From Nitrospirae bacterium JdFR-86 (GTDB lineage Bacteria > Nitrospirota > Thermodesulfovibrionia > Thermodesulfovibrionales > JdFR-86): 64,000 nt of DNA. Below, piece after piece: positions 2,564 to 54,851 of the stretch; the first letter of the stretch is position 1; each line of letters opens with the position of its first letter. The stretch is from contig MTOV01000015.1 of assembly GCA_002011815.1 (NCBI GenBank), positions 197,785 through 261,784 on the forward strand. The letters are read 5' to 3'. The translations under genes were made by a program, and so were the position numbers. The notes below the pieces were generated by a model. The model worked only from the letters and a program-made list of their open reading frames with translations. It ran no database searches and was not told the DNA's origin.

Positions 2564-4813
2564 ATGCAAAACTCCACGTCAGTAAGAACCCTTATTGCTG
2601 TTATTACCATCCTGTTAGCCTTGATGTTTTCGGAAGCTGCCGGGGCCCAGGATATGCCCTTGGTGAATGCGATAGAGGTCAAGGGGCTAAAAAGGATAGG
2701 AGAGGGAGTAGTCCGTGGAAAGATAACGCAGCAAGCCGGTGAACTACTCTCGGATGAAAAAGTCTCTGATGACATAAAAGCCATCTATAAGCTTGGTTAT
2801 TTCGAAGATGTGAGAGCCGAAGTAGAGCCTTTTGAAGGCGGGGTTAAACTCATTTATGTCGTCAGGGAAAAACCTGCCATCGTGTCGGTGGACTTTCAGG
2901 GCAATGACAAGATTGAAGACTCCAAGCTAAGAGAGGCAGTGACAATAACCCCCGGCTCTATATCCGACACTGTGCTTATACAGCGCAACGCGGATAAACT
3001 GCGTGCCCTTTACGAAGAAAAAGGATATGCACTTGCACTGGTTGTGCCTGTGTTAAGGCGGGTGGGTGAAGACCGCCTCTCCCTGACCTATCAGATACAG
3101 GAAGGCCCAAGAGTCAAGATAAAGAGCATAAAGATACTGGGAAACAAGGCAATATCCGCACGCAAGATAAAAAAGGTCATGAAGACCTCCAGAAGATGGT
3201 TTCTGTCCTTTCTGACAGGAAGCGGCTATTATGAAAAAACCAAATTATCTGCTGACATCGAAAAAATAAGAGACCTTTATTATGACAAGGGATTTGTAAA
3301 GGTAGTGGTCTCTGAGCCGACTATTGAACTCACAGAGGACAGAAAATGGATGACAATAACTATCCAGATTTCTGAAGGTGAGCAATTCAGGATATCTGCG
3401 ATAGAGTTCTCAGGCAATACGGTGTTTACTGATGAGCAGTTAAGGGAAAAGATAGAGTCTGCCGAAGGTAATTTTCTCAGCAGAAGGCTTTTAGGGGCTG
3501 ACGTGGCTTCATTGACTGAGATGTATTCTGACAAAGGGTATGCAATGGTTAGCATTTATCCTGATATAATGCTTGATGAGGGCAGGAATCAGGCTAAGGT
3601 GATTTTTAGAATTTCAGAAGGTGACATTTACCGGGTCGGAAGGATAGAGATTTTCGGCAACCAGAGGACAAGAGACAAGGTCATAAGAAGGGAAATGAAG
3701 CTTAACGAAGGGGATGTCTTCAGCGGTAGTCTTCTCAGAAAGAGCTATCGAAGGATTAACAACCTGAACTTTTTTGAAGAAGTGGTTCTTGAACCCAAAC
3801 CCGATCCTGAGAGAAAGACCCTCGACATAGACATAAAGGTCAAGGAGAGGCAAACCGGCTTTTTAAGCGTAGGCGGTGGATACAGTTCTGTTGACAGGTT
3901 TATAGGTATGATTGATTTAACACAGGGGAATCTCGGTGGAAGAGGACAATACATAAAACTCAAATCAGAGTTTGGCAGCAGGTCTTCTTTTTATGAGTTT
4001 TCCTTTACTGACCCCTGGTTTCTGGACAAGCCCGTGTCGTTCACTACAAGTATTTTCAACACAAGAAGGGAATACACCAATTACAACAAGCGAGCCAGCG
4101 GCTTTATGTTCGGATTCGGCAAGGAGTTTCGTGAATACTGGAAGGCTAATATCTCGTATAGTTTTGAAAAGGCTACCATATTCGATGTAGAAGAGACAGC
4201 ATCTGATATCATAAAAGAACAGGAGGGTTCAAGAACGACAAGCAGTGTGTCGGCATCTCTTGCAAGGGACTCAAGGGATAACTTTCTTGACCCGCACACA
4301 GGTTCAAGAAATGTCCTGTCTGTAAAGTATGCAGGTATAGGCGGGGATAATAAGTTTTTCAGGGGGGGAGTGGATTCTACATGGTTTGTGCCGATTGGCA
4401 CTACAACACTTGCATTCAGAGGTCGTTATGGTTATGCCACCGGACTTTTCGGCGAAAAACTCCCTCTTTATGAACGTTTCTATGTCGGAGGCATATACAC
4501 TGTAAGAGGACTTGGTTTTGGACAAGCCGGTCCAAAGGCTGAGGACGGCGCTCCCATAGGCGGCACCAAAAGGATTATATTCAACGTGGACTATACTTTC
4601 CCGCTGATATCCGCAGTCAGGCTTAAAGGAGTTGTCTTCTTCGATGCAGGAACTGCATATGACGACCATGTAAAACTGAGGTATACCACAGGTTTCGGCG
4701 TAAGATGGATATCCCCGATAGGACCCTTAAGGCTGGAATGGGGTAAGAATCTTGAACCTCAACCAGGAGAAGCGGACAGCAGATGGGAGTTTGCCATCGG
4801 AACGTTCTTCTGA
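2564..4813 (+). CDS. bamA: Outer membrane protein assembly factor BamA
   Basis: A 749-aa Omp85 protein that inserts beta-barrel proteins into the outer membrane. A signal peptide ending near SEAAGAQ is followed by POTRA repeats (first begins NAIEVKGLKRIGEG; others near ILGNKAISARKIKK, FSGNTVFTDEQL and IFGNQRTRDKVI). The C-terminal barrel has the conserved VRGLGFG loop motif and ends in aromatic FAIGTFF. The ATG at 2564 begins the signal peptide; the open frame upstream to 2393 would destroy it. It heads the envelope operon with ompH, lpxD, fabZ and lpxA, the standard arrangement in Gram-negatives. Confidence 0.95.
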   Translation: MQNSTSVRTLIAVITILLALMFSEAAGAQDMPLVNAIEVKGLKRIGEGVVRGKITQQAGELLSDEKVSDDIKAIYKLGYFEDVRAEVEPFEGGVKLIYVVREKPAIVSVDFQGNDKIEDSKLREAVTITPGSISDTVLIQRNADKLRALYEEKGYALALVVPVLRRVGEDRLSLTYQIQEGPRVKIKSIKILGNKAISARKIKKVMKTSRRWFLSFLTGSGYYEKTKLSADIEKIRDLYYDKGFVKVVVSEPTIELTEDRKWMTITIQISEGEQFRISAIEFSGNTVFTDEQLREKIESAEGNFLSRRLLGADVASLTEMYSDKGYAMVSIYPDIMLDEGRNQAKVIFRISEGDIYRVGRIEIFGNQRTRDKVIRREMKLNEGDVFSGSLLRKSYRRINNLNFFEEVVLEPKPDPERKTLDIDIKVKERQTGFLSVGGGYSSVDRFIGMIDLTQGNLGGRGQYIKLKSEFGSRSSFYEFSFTDPWFLDKPVSFTTSIFNTRREYTNYNKRASGFMFGFGKEFREYWKANISYSFEKATIFDVEETASDIIKEQEGSRTTSSVSASLARDSRDNFLDPHTGSRNVLSVKYAGIGGDNKFFRGGVDSTWFVPIGTTTLAFRGRYGYATGLFGEKLPLYERFYVGGIYTVRGLGFGQAGPKAEDGAPIGGTKRIIFNVDYTFPLISAVRLKGVVFFDAGTAYDDHVKLRYTTGFGVRWISPIGPLRLEWGKNLEPQPGEADSRWEFAIGTFF

Positions 4814-4836
4814 TTTGAAATTTAAAAGGAGGGGAA

Positions 4837-5418
4837 ATGAAAAAGCTGCTGGTCTTATTTTTTGTGCTCTTTGTTATTCCCTCTTATGCGGTCTCAGCAC
4901 AAGAGGTGAAGATTGGGTTTGTTGATCTGCAACGTGCCCTTAATGAGTCGGAAGCTGGAAAGAAGGCAAAAGCTGAACTTGAAACGATTATAAAAGAGAA
5001 ACAGTCCCAGATAGATGAAAAAATAATGCGTAAGGAGAAAATCAGGAAAGAGCTGGAAATGCAGGCAACCGTGCTTTCTGAAAATGCTATAAGACAGAGA
5101 CAGGATGAACTGGATAGAATGGAACGCGATATTCAAAGGCTCATAGACGACTCCAATGCAGAAATCCAGAGACGGCAGAGACAGATGGAGCTGTCTATAC
5201 TTAAGGAATTGGATGCTATAATAACCGAACTTGGAAAGGAAGAAGGATATACCATCATTCTGCCGGCAGAGGTGATATTGTATTCCGGGGAAGGGACAGA
5301 TATTACAGACCGTGTGATTGAAAAATACGACAAGTCAAAAAGCAGTTCGCACAAACAGAATACGACTTCAGAGGAATCAAATAATCCAGCCGGCAAGCCT
5401 GAAGAGACAGGGAAATGA
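4837..5418 (+). CDS. OmpH/Skp family periplasmic chaperone
   Basis: A 193-aa protein with a signal peptide (MKKLLVLFFVLFVIPSYAVSA). The core begins EVKIGFVDLQRALNESEAG, the Skp signature, followed by a long charged coiled coil (about residues 45-120) expected to form the tentacles that hold unfolded outer-membrane proteins. After the closing beta region it carries a Ser/Asn/Glu-rich tail of about 30 residues that is longer than in classic Skp. It sits between bamA and lpxD, the usual position. Its end overlaps the lpxD start by 4 bases and a good GGAGG site precedes it. Confidence 0.9.
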   Translation: MKKLLVLFFVLFVIPSYAVSAQEVKIGFVDLQRALNESEAGKKAKAELETIIKEKQSQIDEKIMRKEKIRKELEMQATVLSENAIRQRQDELDRMERDIQRLIDDSNAEIQRRQRQMELSILKELDAIITELGKEEGYTIILPAEVILYSGEGTDITDRVIEKYDKSKSSSHKQNTTSEESNNPAGKPEETGK

Positions 5419-51064: not shown

Positions 51065-51522
51065 ATTCGTCATCTCCATTATAGAGTTATGATTGTGGGC
51101 TCTGCGTCCCTTTGCTCAAGCAGAGTATATTTTACCAGAAACGGCAAGGGCAGGCAGGACGCGAACAACGCGAACAGGGTCAACCGACCCTAACTATTTG
51201 AAATCAAAAGCAAAAACCGTGGTTGGCATTTCAGGACGCGAACATAAAAAACAGGCTCCGTCTTCTAAGCCATTTATCCTATGACCGTCTTTTGTAGTAA
51301 GGCACCACCCCGCCGGACAAGTCCAAAATCCCCATAGACAATCACAACTCAGAATTTAGTCAAAACTCACAATTCGAGAAAGTATATAGCTACTGCTTTA
51401 CAATCTCGTCAAGAAGCAAACTCACAACGCATAGTACCCTTAAGGTAAAAATAGGGCTTATACTAGTTGCATTTTCCACGTGAAGCTATTAATATTTTCT
51501 AGAAAATTAGGAGGTTGAGAAC
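51065..51522 (+). other. Non-coding left flank of accessory island
   Basis: This 458-base gap holds no convincing gene. It includes the leuC leader with a TATAAT-like box on the minus strand near 51078. A 13-base direct repeat CAGGACGCGAACA occurs at 51155-51167 and 51232-51244. A short hairpin AGGGTC-AACC-GACCCT lies near 51176-51191. The composition turns AT-rich toward the right, where the QueC-unit promoter lies. Confidence 0.6.
51467..51507 (+). promoter_or_regulatory. Promoter and palindromic operator candidate of the QueC-like unit
   Basis: TTGCAT (51467-51472) and TAATAT (51490-51495) have an optimal 17-base spacing. A perfect 14-base palindrome ATTTTCTAGAAAAT (51494-51507) overlaps the -10 box and predicted transcription start, placed where a repressor could block it. 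AGGAGG follows 2 bases later. Confidence 0.6.
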
Positions 51523-52293
51523 TTGGGTCATATTAGATTAGGACGATTGCCTAAACGAAAGAACTGGATACAGGTCTGCGAACTCTTATCTTCAGAATCT
51601 ATAAATTCACAAGCTTTAGCTGTTTCTATATCCAAAGCGGCTCAGAATAGTCTTTTACGGGATGAAAATCAGAGAGGTCTCTTTCAGACTGTTAGATATC
51701 TTATTAGACTTGTACAAGCATCTCGAACTGAAGACTTTAGCGGGGCTCTTAAAGATATAGGTATAGTTTTTGACCAGGAAGAATCGGGAATGGTTCTGCT
51801 CGGTCACATTTTAGAAAAAATAAAAGATGATATCCACCAAAATAAAGGGAACTCCCATCTTGATAGTATTGCATCTACAGCATTTCAAGAGACTCTTACA
51901 AAAACTATCCACCAATACGCTCAAACGCTTTTCGGCTGTTCAATTGAAGATGTAAGAAGTGCTTTTAAACGTTATTCTTCCAAAAATAAATTTGGAGAGA
52001 TAGCTCGTTTGCTTTTCAGTACTTACCTCACAAGAATATTCCAATATACAATTGACCGAGCAATTTCTGAGAATGTTGGAGTAGGTAAGAAATTTAATGA
52101 TGTTAACAGTGTTTTAGAGTTTCAAAAAGCTATCAAAACTTATTGTTGGGATATAAGCAAAATAGTCGAAGAATACTCAGGAGGGTGGTATTCAAAACAT
52201 GAATGGGAGGGAACCCTTTCGGATGCTGAAATAAAACGGTTCACCAGTTACGCCTTAAAAAAGCTATTAAGTGAAATCAACGAAGATAGATGA
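51523..52293 (+). CDS. Uncharacterised Met-Gly protein partnered with QueC-like enzyme
   Basis: A 256-aa protein I do not recognise. It begins MGHIRLGRLPKRKNW, giving an N-terminal glycine after Met removal. The rest is mostly helical with no signal peptide, membrane helix, or enzyme motif seen. The start is TTG, well supported by AGGAGG 8 bases upstream. It overlaps the QueC-like gene by 4 bases (ATGA), so both products are made together. QueC-like enzymes in some defence systems act on a Gly-starting partner, which makes this a plausible substrate (inference). The DNA is AT-richer than the surroundings. Confidence 0.75.
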   Translation: MGHIRLGRLPKRKNWIQVCELLSSESINSQALAVSISKAAQNSLLRDENQRGLFQTVRYLIRLVQASRTEDFSGALKDIGIVFDQEESGMVLLGHILEKIKDDIHQNKGNSHLDSIASTAFQETLTKTIHQYAQTLFGCSIEDVRSAFKRYSSKNKFGEIARLLFSTYLTRIFQYTIDRAISENVGVGKKFNDVNSVLEFQKAIKTYCWDISKIVEEYSGGWYSKHEWEGTLSDAEIKRFTSYALKKLLSEINEDR

Positions 52294-54140
52294 GTAATAC
52301 ATTGCTATGCATATGTGAAGGCGCTCCACAGCCTAACATTGTATTCGATAAAACTATTCATTTATCTCATCTTGGTACTAATGCGAATATTCGGCTTGGA
52401 ATAGAAGACTATTACAATAATCTTGCAGGTAAACTTGATGATATATCTAAAGACCTTTTGAGAATTGCAGCATATATTTATGTAGCAGATACATCAGTGA
52501 GCAGGGGGGGTGATGCAGATATTTGGGGGAAAAATTGGCGGAGACAATTTCACTTAGCTATTCCTGTGTTGCTACCAGATATTTGGAACGATTCGACAGT
52601 TAAAGACCTATTGAAAAGTGTAGTTGATTTTTTAACTGAAGACTCTTTTGAATTCACTTTTACACAATGGCAGGATCCAATACGACAAACATTTCTAAAT
52701 TTATTTAAAACACCTAATGAAGGAATTGGAGCTGATTCAGTTGTTTTATTTTCTGGAGGATTAGATTCATTATATGCTGTTGGTAAGCTTACCGTTACTG
52801 AAAAAAGAAGGCCTCTCCTAATAAGTCATCTAAGTACCAATAAAGTAGTATCTCGACAGCGTTCTATTATTCAGGCAATCAAGAACCATCATAAGTCTAG
52901 TACTGACTGGTCTTTTCCTCATTGGGCAGTACGTATTAGTCGTATGAGAAGTGAGGGGAAAGAAAGAACTCAAAGAAGTCGCTCATTCCTTTATGCAACA
53001 CTTGGGGTTACAGCGGCTCATGCTTTAAATGTTTCCGATGTATTTCTTAGTGATAATGGTATTGTAAGTATTAATCTTCCGCCTTCTTCTCAAACTGTTG
53101 GGGCTATGGCTTCGAGAACTACCCACCCAAAATTTATATCAAATTTTAACACTCTAATGGAAAAAATAGGCTTACCAAAGGTGAAGAATAGCCTATTGCA
53201 TTTAACAAAGGCTGAGGTTGTAAGCGGCTTACGTAACATTGGGTTTGATAATCTTATTCCATTAACTGTATCCTGTGCACGAATACATGGTATGTCGAAA
53301 TTCCAACCGCATTGTGGTACTTGTACACAATGTCTTGATAGACGATTTGCCACTATTTATGCAAATTTAGAAGCTCAAGACCCTCCGGAACAATATGTAA
53401 AGGATATTTTCAAAGATTCTATAGATACTCTATATGACAGAATGCATGCTGAAAATTTAATCCGTCATTGCATCAATTTGCGAACCTTGTCTATTGAATC
53501 TTTTCTTGAGATATTTCCAATGGTGTGGGATTGTGTGGATTTATTTGATAATCCAGAAGAAAAAATTCAAGAGCTTTATGATCTTCATCAACGTTATTCA
53601 GAACAGGTCTTACAGGCAATTAAAATAAAGCAAGGTGAGCTTTTTAATGATTTTGTGAGTGGGATAATATCAAGGGAGAGCATATTAGGTCTTATTGGGA
53701 GCGGTGACCACCTGAAAACATCTATTGATAGAATCGCTACAGAGCTGGGTGATTTGTTTGCAAGAAGACTCCCGATTGTCTTCCAGACAAAGAAACCAGC
53801 AAGAGAAAGAGATGTTCAAGATGCAGCACAGGCACTTTTATCTGAGTTTAGCGAAAATATTCAACGTGAAGCTCCACAAGTCAGCTATAGTGTTGTAAAC
53901 AGACGACCTGACTTTTCAAAAGATAGATCTCAACTATTTATCGAAATGAAGTTAGTTAAAGCTAAAAAAGATGTTAGCAAAGTGATAGATGAAATATCTG
54001 CTGATATAAGACCATACTTAGATCATAGTAGAGGTATTCTTTTTTGTATCTACGATACTGACCGCAATATTGTTGATGATGATAAGTTTAAAGAACCATT
54101 TAAGAATGACACGAATGTGTTTATAAAAATAATAAGATGA
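52290..54140 (+). CDS. QueC-like PP-loop enzyme fused to PD-(D/E)XK-like domain
   Basis: A 616-aa protein. An N-terminal domain of unknown type (1-145) precedes a PP-loop ATPase core with SGGLDS (155-160), and the QueC zinc site Cys329, Cys342, Cys345, Cys348 (CGTCTQC). A helical linker leads to a C-terminal region with RRPD541 and IE552MK554, matching a PD-x10-ExK nuclease core. True QueC (about 220 aa) makes preQ0 for queuosine; this protein is far larger, sits in an accessory island and has no queuosine neighbours, so it resembles defence-associated QueC homologues (QatC, CBASS Cap9). Whether the C-terminal domain cuts DNA is unknown. Confidence 0.82.
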   Translation: MSNTLLCICEGAPQPNIVFDKTIHLSHLGTNANIRLGIEDYYNNLAGKLDDISKDLLRIAAYIYVADTSVSRGGDADIWGKNWRRQFHLAIPVLLPDIWNDSTVKDLLKSVVDFLTEDSFEFTFTQWQDPIRQTFLNLFKTPNEGIGADSVVLFSGGLDSLYAVGKLTVTEKRRPLLISHLSTNKVVSRQRSIIQAIKNHHKSSTDWSFPHWAVRISRMRSEGKERTQRSRSFLYATLGVTAAHALNVSDVFLSDNGIVSINLPPSSQTVGAMASRTTHPKFISNFNTLMEKIGLPKVKNSLLHLTKAEVVSGLRNIGFDNLIPLTVSCARIHGMSKFQPHCGTCTQCLDRRFATIYANLEAQDPPEQYVKDIFKDSIDTLYDRMHAENLIRHCINLRTLSIESFLEIFPMVWDCVDLFDNPEEKIQELYDLHQRYSEQVLQAIKIKQGELFNDFVSGIISRESILGLIGSGDHLKTSIDRIATELGDLFARRLPIVFQTKKPARERDVQDAAQALLSEFSENIQREAPQVSYSVVNRRPDFSKDRSQLFIEMKLVKAKKDVSKVIDEISADIRPYLDHSRGILFCIYDTDRNIVDDDKFKEPFKNDTNVFIKIIR

Positions 54141-54327
54141 ATTTCTAACATATAATTTGATTAGGCTTCGGTGAAGACTTCCCATGCAAAAATTTAAAGC
54201 CTCTATTATCCGTACATTAAGCCTCTTAGAAGATGGATACTTTGAAAGGCAAAAAACACTCTTCTCCTATCCCCCAATAAAATCCTAAACAAATCCAAAT
54301 ACTCAAAATCCTGTAACCCCTCATCGA
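54141..54327. other. Short AT-rich spacer in accessory island
   Basis: The 187 bases between the QueC-like gene and the toxin gene hold no supported gene. One 34-codon open frame (54184-54288) has no ribosome site or recognisable product and is probably chance or a remnant. Confidence 0.5.
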
Positions 54328-54597
54328 CTATGGATACCGTCTGTAAGCTTCTTTGCGATGTCGTATGTGATAGACCGTTACCGTTTTATTTTGCACATCA
54401 ACCTGATAAATTACCCGGTATTCCCCAATGCGAATACGGTAGCTCAGTTCAGAGCCTTGAAGTTTTCTGCATTGAGCAGGAAAGGGGTTTTCTGAAAGGG
54501 CTTCTATCGCAGTCAGGATTTGCGGTATATGTTGACGGTCAAGTTTTTTGAGGTCGCGTTCAGCCGATGTTTTCCAGAGAAGATTAAATGATACCAT
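54328..54597 (-). CDS. RelE/ParE-family toxin
   Basis: An 89-aa RelE-fold protein expected to cleave mRNA at the ribosome or inhibit gyrase. Typical motifs are LLWKTSAERDLKKLD, CRKLQGSELSYRIRIGEYRVIYQVD and the C-terminal TVYHIRHRKEAYRR with basic catalytic residues. Length is normal and no key region is missing. It overlaps the antitoxin gene by 14 bases, the usual antitoxin-first order. Confidence 0.9.
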   Translation of the reverse strand: MVSFNLLWKTSAERDLKKLDRQHIPQILTAIEALSENPFPAQCRKLQGSELSYRIRIGEYRVIYQVDVQNKTVTVYHIRHRKEAYRRYP

Positions 54598-54775
54598 CTG
54601 CCTGGAGTTTCTTTTTTAACTCGTCAAGGCTGATGGTTGGCTCGTCTTTACGTTCAGCTATAACGGCGAGGTCGTGTAGGTCTTCGAGAAGTTCTTCATA
54701 TTCGTCAAGTGGCAGGACTACGGCAATTTTTTTGCCAGAATCATCTATCATATATCTTTCATGTAATTTCTCCAT
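54584..54775 (-). CDS. Phd/YefM-like antitoxin
   Basis: A 63-aa acidic protein upstream of and overlapping the RelE-like toxin. VVLPLDEYEELLEDLHDLAVIAERKDEPTISL-type composition (positions about 20-50) matches toxin-binding tails of Phd/RelB antitoxins; the N-terminal DNA-binding part is short. GGAGGAATGCA precedes the ATG. It may autoregulate the pair. Confidence 0.85.
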   Translation of the reverse strand: MEKLHERYMIDDSGKKIAVVLPLDEYEELLEDLHDLAVIAERKDEPTISLDELKKKLQADGII

Positions 54776-54851
54776 TGCATTCCTCCTGATTTCTGTAGCT
54801 TATTTTATCACATATAGTAATTCACGGAAAAGAAATGTACTAGGCAGCCCC

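Follow-up and report, generated by a model that had tools for sequence, protein, structure and literature searches.

In type IV CBASS, the enzyme Cap9 joins 7-carboxy-7-deazaguanine to the N-terminal glycine of its partner protein (PMC11996544). In Qat defense, P. aeruginosa QatB pairs 1:1 with QatC, and the resulting complex protects against lambda without a further gene (PMC13279940; PDB 9y01/9y02). The N-terminal Gly of QatB is modeled inside the QatC active site, and defense is abolished by the QatB G2D substitution and lost upon mutation of the Pa-QatC ATP loop (PMC13279940). Within the PaQatB tail, residues 16-22 are required and residues 34-40 are dispensable (PMC13279940). QatC carries T278/T280 in place of the CDG-reading Tyr/Asp, and restoring Tyr/Asp abolished defense (PMC13279940). 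The same authors could not reconstitute the QatC reaction and reported no QatB modification; they name as open questions both how QatC acts on QatB and by what means the phage is subsequently stopped (PMC13279940). Deazaguanine attachment has been demonstrated for type IV CBASS Cap9 only (PMC11996544) and is inferred for Qat.

Here, we describe a gene pair from Nitrospirae bacterium JdFR-86 that resembles QatBC and carries a nuclease domain on the enzyme itself. We interpret the two genes as an immune module that moves horizontally and has a QatBC-like complex at its core, a reading to which, taken as a whole, we assign a probability of about 0.55.

Genomic setting of the gene pair

The window, a 64,000-nucleotide stretch of contig MTOV01000015.1, encodes on its forward strand a partner of 256 aa, predicted to be a QatB-like helical protein (51523..52293, +; TTG start), followed by a 616-aa QatC-like enzyme with a fused nuclease (52290..54140, +; ATG start). 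The partner stop codon and the enzyme start codon share a 4-base ATGA overlap at 52290. Among homologous loci, a start at such an overlap is available in 74/236 pairs, and in genome G418 the two genes abut; the strict coupling to which the first-pass annotation had appealed is therefore real in the window and not general.

Both genes reside in an AT-rich segment inserted between leuC and leuA (51080..54851), together with a toxin-antitoxin pair on the opposite strand (54328..54775, -) comprising a ParE-type toxin (54328-54597; PF05016, 6e-14) and a RelB-like antitoxin (54584-54775; PF18506, 1e-8). The GC content is 0.35-0.39 within the insertion versus 0.44-0.50 outside. In the relatives G396 and G162, leuA and leuC are adjacent, whereas the insertion splits them in the window. 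The partner occurs in 2 of the 177 genomes of the order, and no other genome of the host's family carries the module. Based on these sequence features, the segment is most plausibly an insertion acquired by horizontal transfer. Given that the host genome encodes its own canonical QueC, QueD, and a QueE-like protein, it probably makes a 7-deazaguanine precursor.

The partner and its N-terminal glycine

The first-pass annotation had called a Met-Gly start for the partner, and positions 51523-51567 (+) indeed read MGHIRLGRLPKRKNW from a TTG codon with a good Shine-Dalgarno sequence (AGGAGG, 51509..51514, +) 8 bases upstream. This stretch constitutes the N-terminal tail, with the family motif MGHxRLGxLPxxxxW and Gly2 as the proposed acceptor. 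An earlier start is excluded by an in-frame TAG at 51508-51510. The partner homologue at locus L333 of G418, another genome of the same order, is 67% identical, has ATG where the window has TTG, and matches 14 of the first 15 residues. A false TTG start was considered and ruled out by the Shine-Dalgarno sequence, the upstream stop, the L333 ATG, and the presence of a start codon at position 1 in all 167 distinct partners (153 ATG, 7 TTG, 6 GTG, 1 CTG); by these sequence criteria, the start is real. Comparison of the whole gene between the window and L333 gave pS 0.79, with synonymous sites saturated, and pN 0.19. Within codons 2-18, there were 10.5 synonymous versus 2.5 non-synonymous changes, a pattern indicating that the tail is under selection at the protein level.

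Of the 167 distinct partners, 104 come from viral contigs and 61 from genomes, the others being those of the window and Leptospira. Apart from a few loci found by a partner motif, loci were selected through motifs of the QueC-like gene, with the partner not used, and a partner was present at 171 of the 173 distinct enzyme loci with sufficient upstream DNA. The first-pass annotation had looked to homologues for an invariant Met-Gly start and stated that an unconserved Gly2 would refute modification; Gly2 proved to be retained in 167/167 partners, and no other column of the protein is as conserved. In a 70%-dereplicated alignment of 52 sequences, only G2, W222, and K247 are invariant (the Leptospira row was left out of the dereplicated alignments used for structure prediction). 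Conservation also extends along the tail, with Pro10 at 95%, Leu9 at 92%, and a mean of 0.68 over residues 1-16 versus 0.47 over the remainder. The same two genes are found on a Leptospira noguchii plasmid, where the partner is 28% identical to that of the window and shares MGHxRLGxLPK and Trp15. Judged from these alignments, Gly2 conservation is not a matter of chance, and it reaches well past QatB of the MGTS type.

His3 is nearly as constant (165/167), and QatB has Thr at this position, as would suit a mature Gly-His N-terminus that binds Cu or Zn and is conserved for reasons unrelated to modification. However, L088 (with Thr3) and L058 (with Asn3) both keep Gly2, which is the stricter residue, and QatB, although it has no His3, depends on this Gly. 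We therefore regard metal binding as very improbable.

The partner matched no family in Pfam, NCBIfam, PADLOC, or PHROG. Searches with its family members returned scattered single weak matches in PADLOC, taken as chance, and none in PHROGs, and the sequence profile gave only chance matches in the PDB, with QatB absent. The AlphaFold2 (AF2) model is all helical (pLDDT 88, pTM 0.86), with residues 1-6 disordered (pLDDT <50) and the first helix beginning at residue 13. Foldseek comparison with the PDB returned QatB (9y01_A) with a TM-score of 0.52 on the query and 0.60 on the target (probability 0.99, E 0.31), the only PDB match listed with a TM-score >0.5. We take the partner to be a QatB homologue on this one AF2 fold comparison, whose E value of 0.31 is non-significant and which is without sequence support. 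Like QatB, it would have a flexible tail that presents the N-terminal Gly and includes conserved Pro and Trp residues. The tails differ in motif, with MGTS at the start of canonical QatB from this data set and MGHxRLGxLP here, and in length (~12 residues versus 30-90 in QatB). By analogy, the short tail looks like the required part of the QatB tail minus the variable linker.

As a separate observation, three loci (L009, L010, and L011) encode QatC-like proteins with the zinc motif CGICAAC[IT]LRR, and their upstream partner open reading frames have no Met-Gly start candidate. Judging from sequence, they may represent a further QatC subfamily, one that lacks the glycine.

A QatC-like enzyme with a remodeled substrate site

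Sequence and structure both place the enzyme near QatC. It matched QatC in PADLOC (4e-62) and, by sequence, in the PDB (2e-35); against the NCBIfam QatC model NF041925, it scored 216 bits (E 7.5e-64), under the cut-off of 280. The best fold match of its AF2 model was QatC 9y01_B (E 4e-23, TM-score 0.79 on the target), followed by Cap9 with its NDG-bearing partner CdnD. The ATP-pyrophosphate loop SGGLDS (residues 155-160; 52752..52769, +) has S155, G156, G157, D159, and S160 invariant in alignment A6. A QatC-type substrate site, SRTTHP (residues 275-280; 53112..53129, +; R276-P280 invariant), stands where QueC and Cap9 have Tyr/Asp. The zinc-binding motif HCGTCTQCLDRR (residues 341-352; 53310..53345, +) conforms to the signature CGxCxQCxDRR, which distinguishes a clade of such enzymes from QatC (CGxCxPCLIR), the canonical zinc motif position being C[LV]PCLIR. 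The enzyme thus combines the QatC fold, SGGxDS, the [ST]RTTHP loop, and the zinc cysteines, and it adjoins a partner with an N-terminal Met-Gly and a QatB fold by the single comparison above (E 0.31). A QatBC-like complex is accordingly the part of our reading that we hold most firmly and regard as very likely.

Canonical QueC (preQ0 synthase, TIGR00364) shares the PP-loop SGGxDS, zinc cysteines, and fold, whereas the present enzyme has N- and C-terminal extensions and a remodeled substrate site; a plain preQ0 synthase was rejected because the host has its own canonical QueC. In Cap9-CdnD (PDB 9nto), a QueC-fold enzyme likewise adjoins a partner with N-terminal Met-Gly. That partner is a CD-NTase, unlike the helical QatB-like protein found here, and the present enzyme has no CDG-recognition Tyr/Asp. 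No Cap10-like gene was seen adjoining the window pair.

Given that QatB Gly2 is essential and is modeled in the QatC site, the partner N-terminus is best read as an enzyme substrate, and by analogy Gly2 is likely the residue presented. The proposal that the QueC-like enzyme modifies the N-terminus of its partner therefore stands in part: a QatB-like partner of a QatC-like enzyme with an absolute Gly2 accords with it, whereas deazaguanine as the group does not follow. The Tyr and Asp that bind deazaguanine (YPDC motif) are absent from the window enzyme, and 198 of 202 enzymes carry [ST]R[ST]THP at this site (167 TRTTHP, 30 SRTTHP, 1 SRSTHP). The first-pass annotation had extended deazaguanine attachment to Qat; with CDG-reading Tyr/Asp replaced and the reaction demonstrated for Cap9 only (PMC11996544), that extension is not supported as it stands, and we consider deazaguanine doubtful as the group added. 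As a variant of our best explanation, an ATP-activated carboxylic acid other than deazaguanine may be joined to Gly2. The replacement of Tyr/Asp by [ST] and T, as in QatC, and the loss of defense when Tyr/Asp were restored in QatC (PMC13279940) would agree with this variant. It comes with no candidate substrate, however, and the host probably makes 7-deazaguanine precursors; we hold it to be conceivable, at appreciably less than even odds.

Recognition of the tail by the enzyme would account for the conservation data equally well. The Gly2 tail might then serve as a non-covalent plug or sensor in the QatC site, perhaps with ATP, that keeps the fused nuclease inactive with nothing attached. His3 and RLGxLP are nearly as conserved as Gly2, as expected for a bound peptide, and for QatBC itself neither a reconstituted activity nor a QatB modification has been reported (PMC13279940). 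A passive plug would nevertheless need no ATP-pyrophosphate loop, which is retained here and whose mutation kills Pa-QatC defense (PMC13279940), and the absolute Gly2 suits an amine acceptor, compare Cap9-CdnD (PMC11996544). Non-covalent occupancy thus appears unlikely to us. By analogy with QatBC, N-terminal modification is well supported, and we consider covalent modification of Gly2 reasonably probable.

Fused C-terminal modules

Clade enzymes diverge after residue 445. In the window, the C-terminal extension contains a DpnII/MboI-type PD-(D/E)xK nuclease domain (residues 506-609; 53805..54116, +; PF18742, 5.4e-15, above the gathering score) with P540 D541 ... E552 x K554. The fused nuclease and the wider family were absent from the first-pass annotation. 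AF2 modeled the nuclease part with low confidence. Between the window and L333, protein-level divergence is lower in the nuclease part (pN 0.11, pS 0.82) than in the QatC core (pN 0.15, pS 0.69). Nuclease carriers are the window, Leptospira, Chitinophaga, a verrucomicrobium, a Muribaculaceae genome, Brocadia, and L333; PD and ExK are retained in Leptospira L017, Chitinophaga L244, Verrucomicrobia L259, Brocadia L292, and L333.

Other modules occupy the same position. A winged-helix-like module is found in most enzymes, with ~160 of ~185 tails forming one group with an OmpR-type signature (Trans_reg_C significant in 5 of 56, up to 1e-9). TIR_2 is fused to the QatC-like enzyme in L269 and L291, and the trypsin-like protease Trypsin_2 in L284 and L287. 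Nuclease member L267, just under the Pfam cut-off, groups with both protease members with 100% support; modules have thus been exchanged among related cores. DpnII/MboI-type REase, TIR_2, and Trypsin_2 domains in cis to a conserved core recall immune proteins with exchangeable effectors, although the core here is a QatC-like ligase and not an NTPase, Argonaute, or nucleotidyltransferase.

The prevalence of winged helices, a DNA-binding module, and the frequency of the pair in viral contigs could also reflect maintenance or regulation of the mobile element itself, with no immune function. Nuclease, TIR, and trypsin-like modules on the same core are nonetheless typical immune effectors, and the homology is to QatBC, a demonstrated defense complex. 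We judge a non-immune role quite unlikely; by the same analogies, an anti-phage or anti-element role is highly probable, and the nuclease is probably the output.

Proposed mechanism

In the immune module that we favor, methionine aminopeptidase would expose Gly2 of the partner, and the tail would enter the QatC active site. The enzyme would adenylate a carboxylic acid, either 7-carboxy-7-deazaguanine or a different one, and join it to the Gly2 amine. The modified partner, bound to the enzyme next to the effector, would then license or gate the fused effector, and the nuclease would cut DNA after phage infection.

The pair resembles QatBC of qatABCD in its adjacent partner and enzyme genes, the QatC fold and active-site signature, and the QatB-like fold. 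QatA (KAP NTPase) and QatD (TatD nuclease) are absent beside the window pair, in contrast to qatABCD. A QatA-like match was found in 1 of 145 well-flanked clade loci, compared with QatA and QatD in 13 of 14 well-flanked canonical loci. A canonical Qat operon was rejected, as the pair is without QatA/QatD and belongs to a separate clade. QatA and QatD are perhaps missing because the effector would act in cis.

Somewhat short of even odds, we extend this proposal to the clade: N-terminal modification of a small helical partner by a QatC-like ligase may gate an exchangeable effector fused to that ligase, defining a distinct, widespread, and unannotated immune class. In that class, the group added would perhaps not be deazaguanine, and the effector could be a DNA nuclease, TIR, protease, or winged helix, with many copies on viral contigs. 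In this clade, the QatBC core comes with a recognizable effector on the enzyme and a shorter, more evenly conserved tail, so that any coupling of N-terminal modification to effector activation can be tested directly. Natural swaps among nuclease, TIR, and protease make the readout selectable: DNA cutting, NAD loss, or proteolysis.

Distribution of the clade

A DNA pattern for the enzyme zinc motif CGxCxQCxDRR, which leaves the partner gene untouched, retrieved at least 120 viral-contig stretches, and the enzyme profile (A6), run against bacterial genomes, added 80 further loci, most of them from the CGxCxQCxDRR clade. Single-protein scans of viral contigs with the partner or the enzyme returned no match, nor did a 2-row alignment search of viral contigs or a search of phage records. 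In the enzyme-core tree, the branch dividing CGxCxQCxDRR sequences from canonical QatC, which has no such fused C-terminal effector, received 100% support. Hosts include Pseudomonadota, Verrucomicrobiota, Planctomycetota, Acidobacteriota, Bacteroidota, Bacillota, Ignavibacteriota, and others, and members are frequent in viral contigs.

In earlier work, only about one third of the QatC cluster adjoins qatA/qatD, and the fusions seen here are not described (PMC13329287). Our literature search, which covered the main texts of largely open-access papers, found no description of a clade defined by MGHxRLGxLP and CGxCxQCxDRR. By sequence, the clade is apparently an undescribed sister of QatBC. Co-occurrence of the two motifs in neighboring genes would allow annotation tools to find such loci.

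Several loci have distinctive neighbors or features. Clade members adjoin DNA methyltransferase genes in three viral contigs (L146, L180, and L213) and at L333 of G418, and serine recombinases at L173 and L205. On a Natrinema plasmid (L020, ~3354-5215), an archaeal QatC-like gene without the TRTTHP loop is preceded by short upstream genes; its sequence makes a further QatC-like branch possible.
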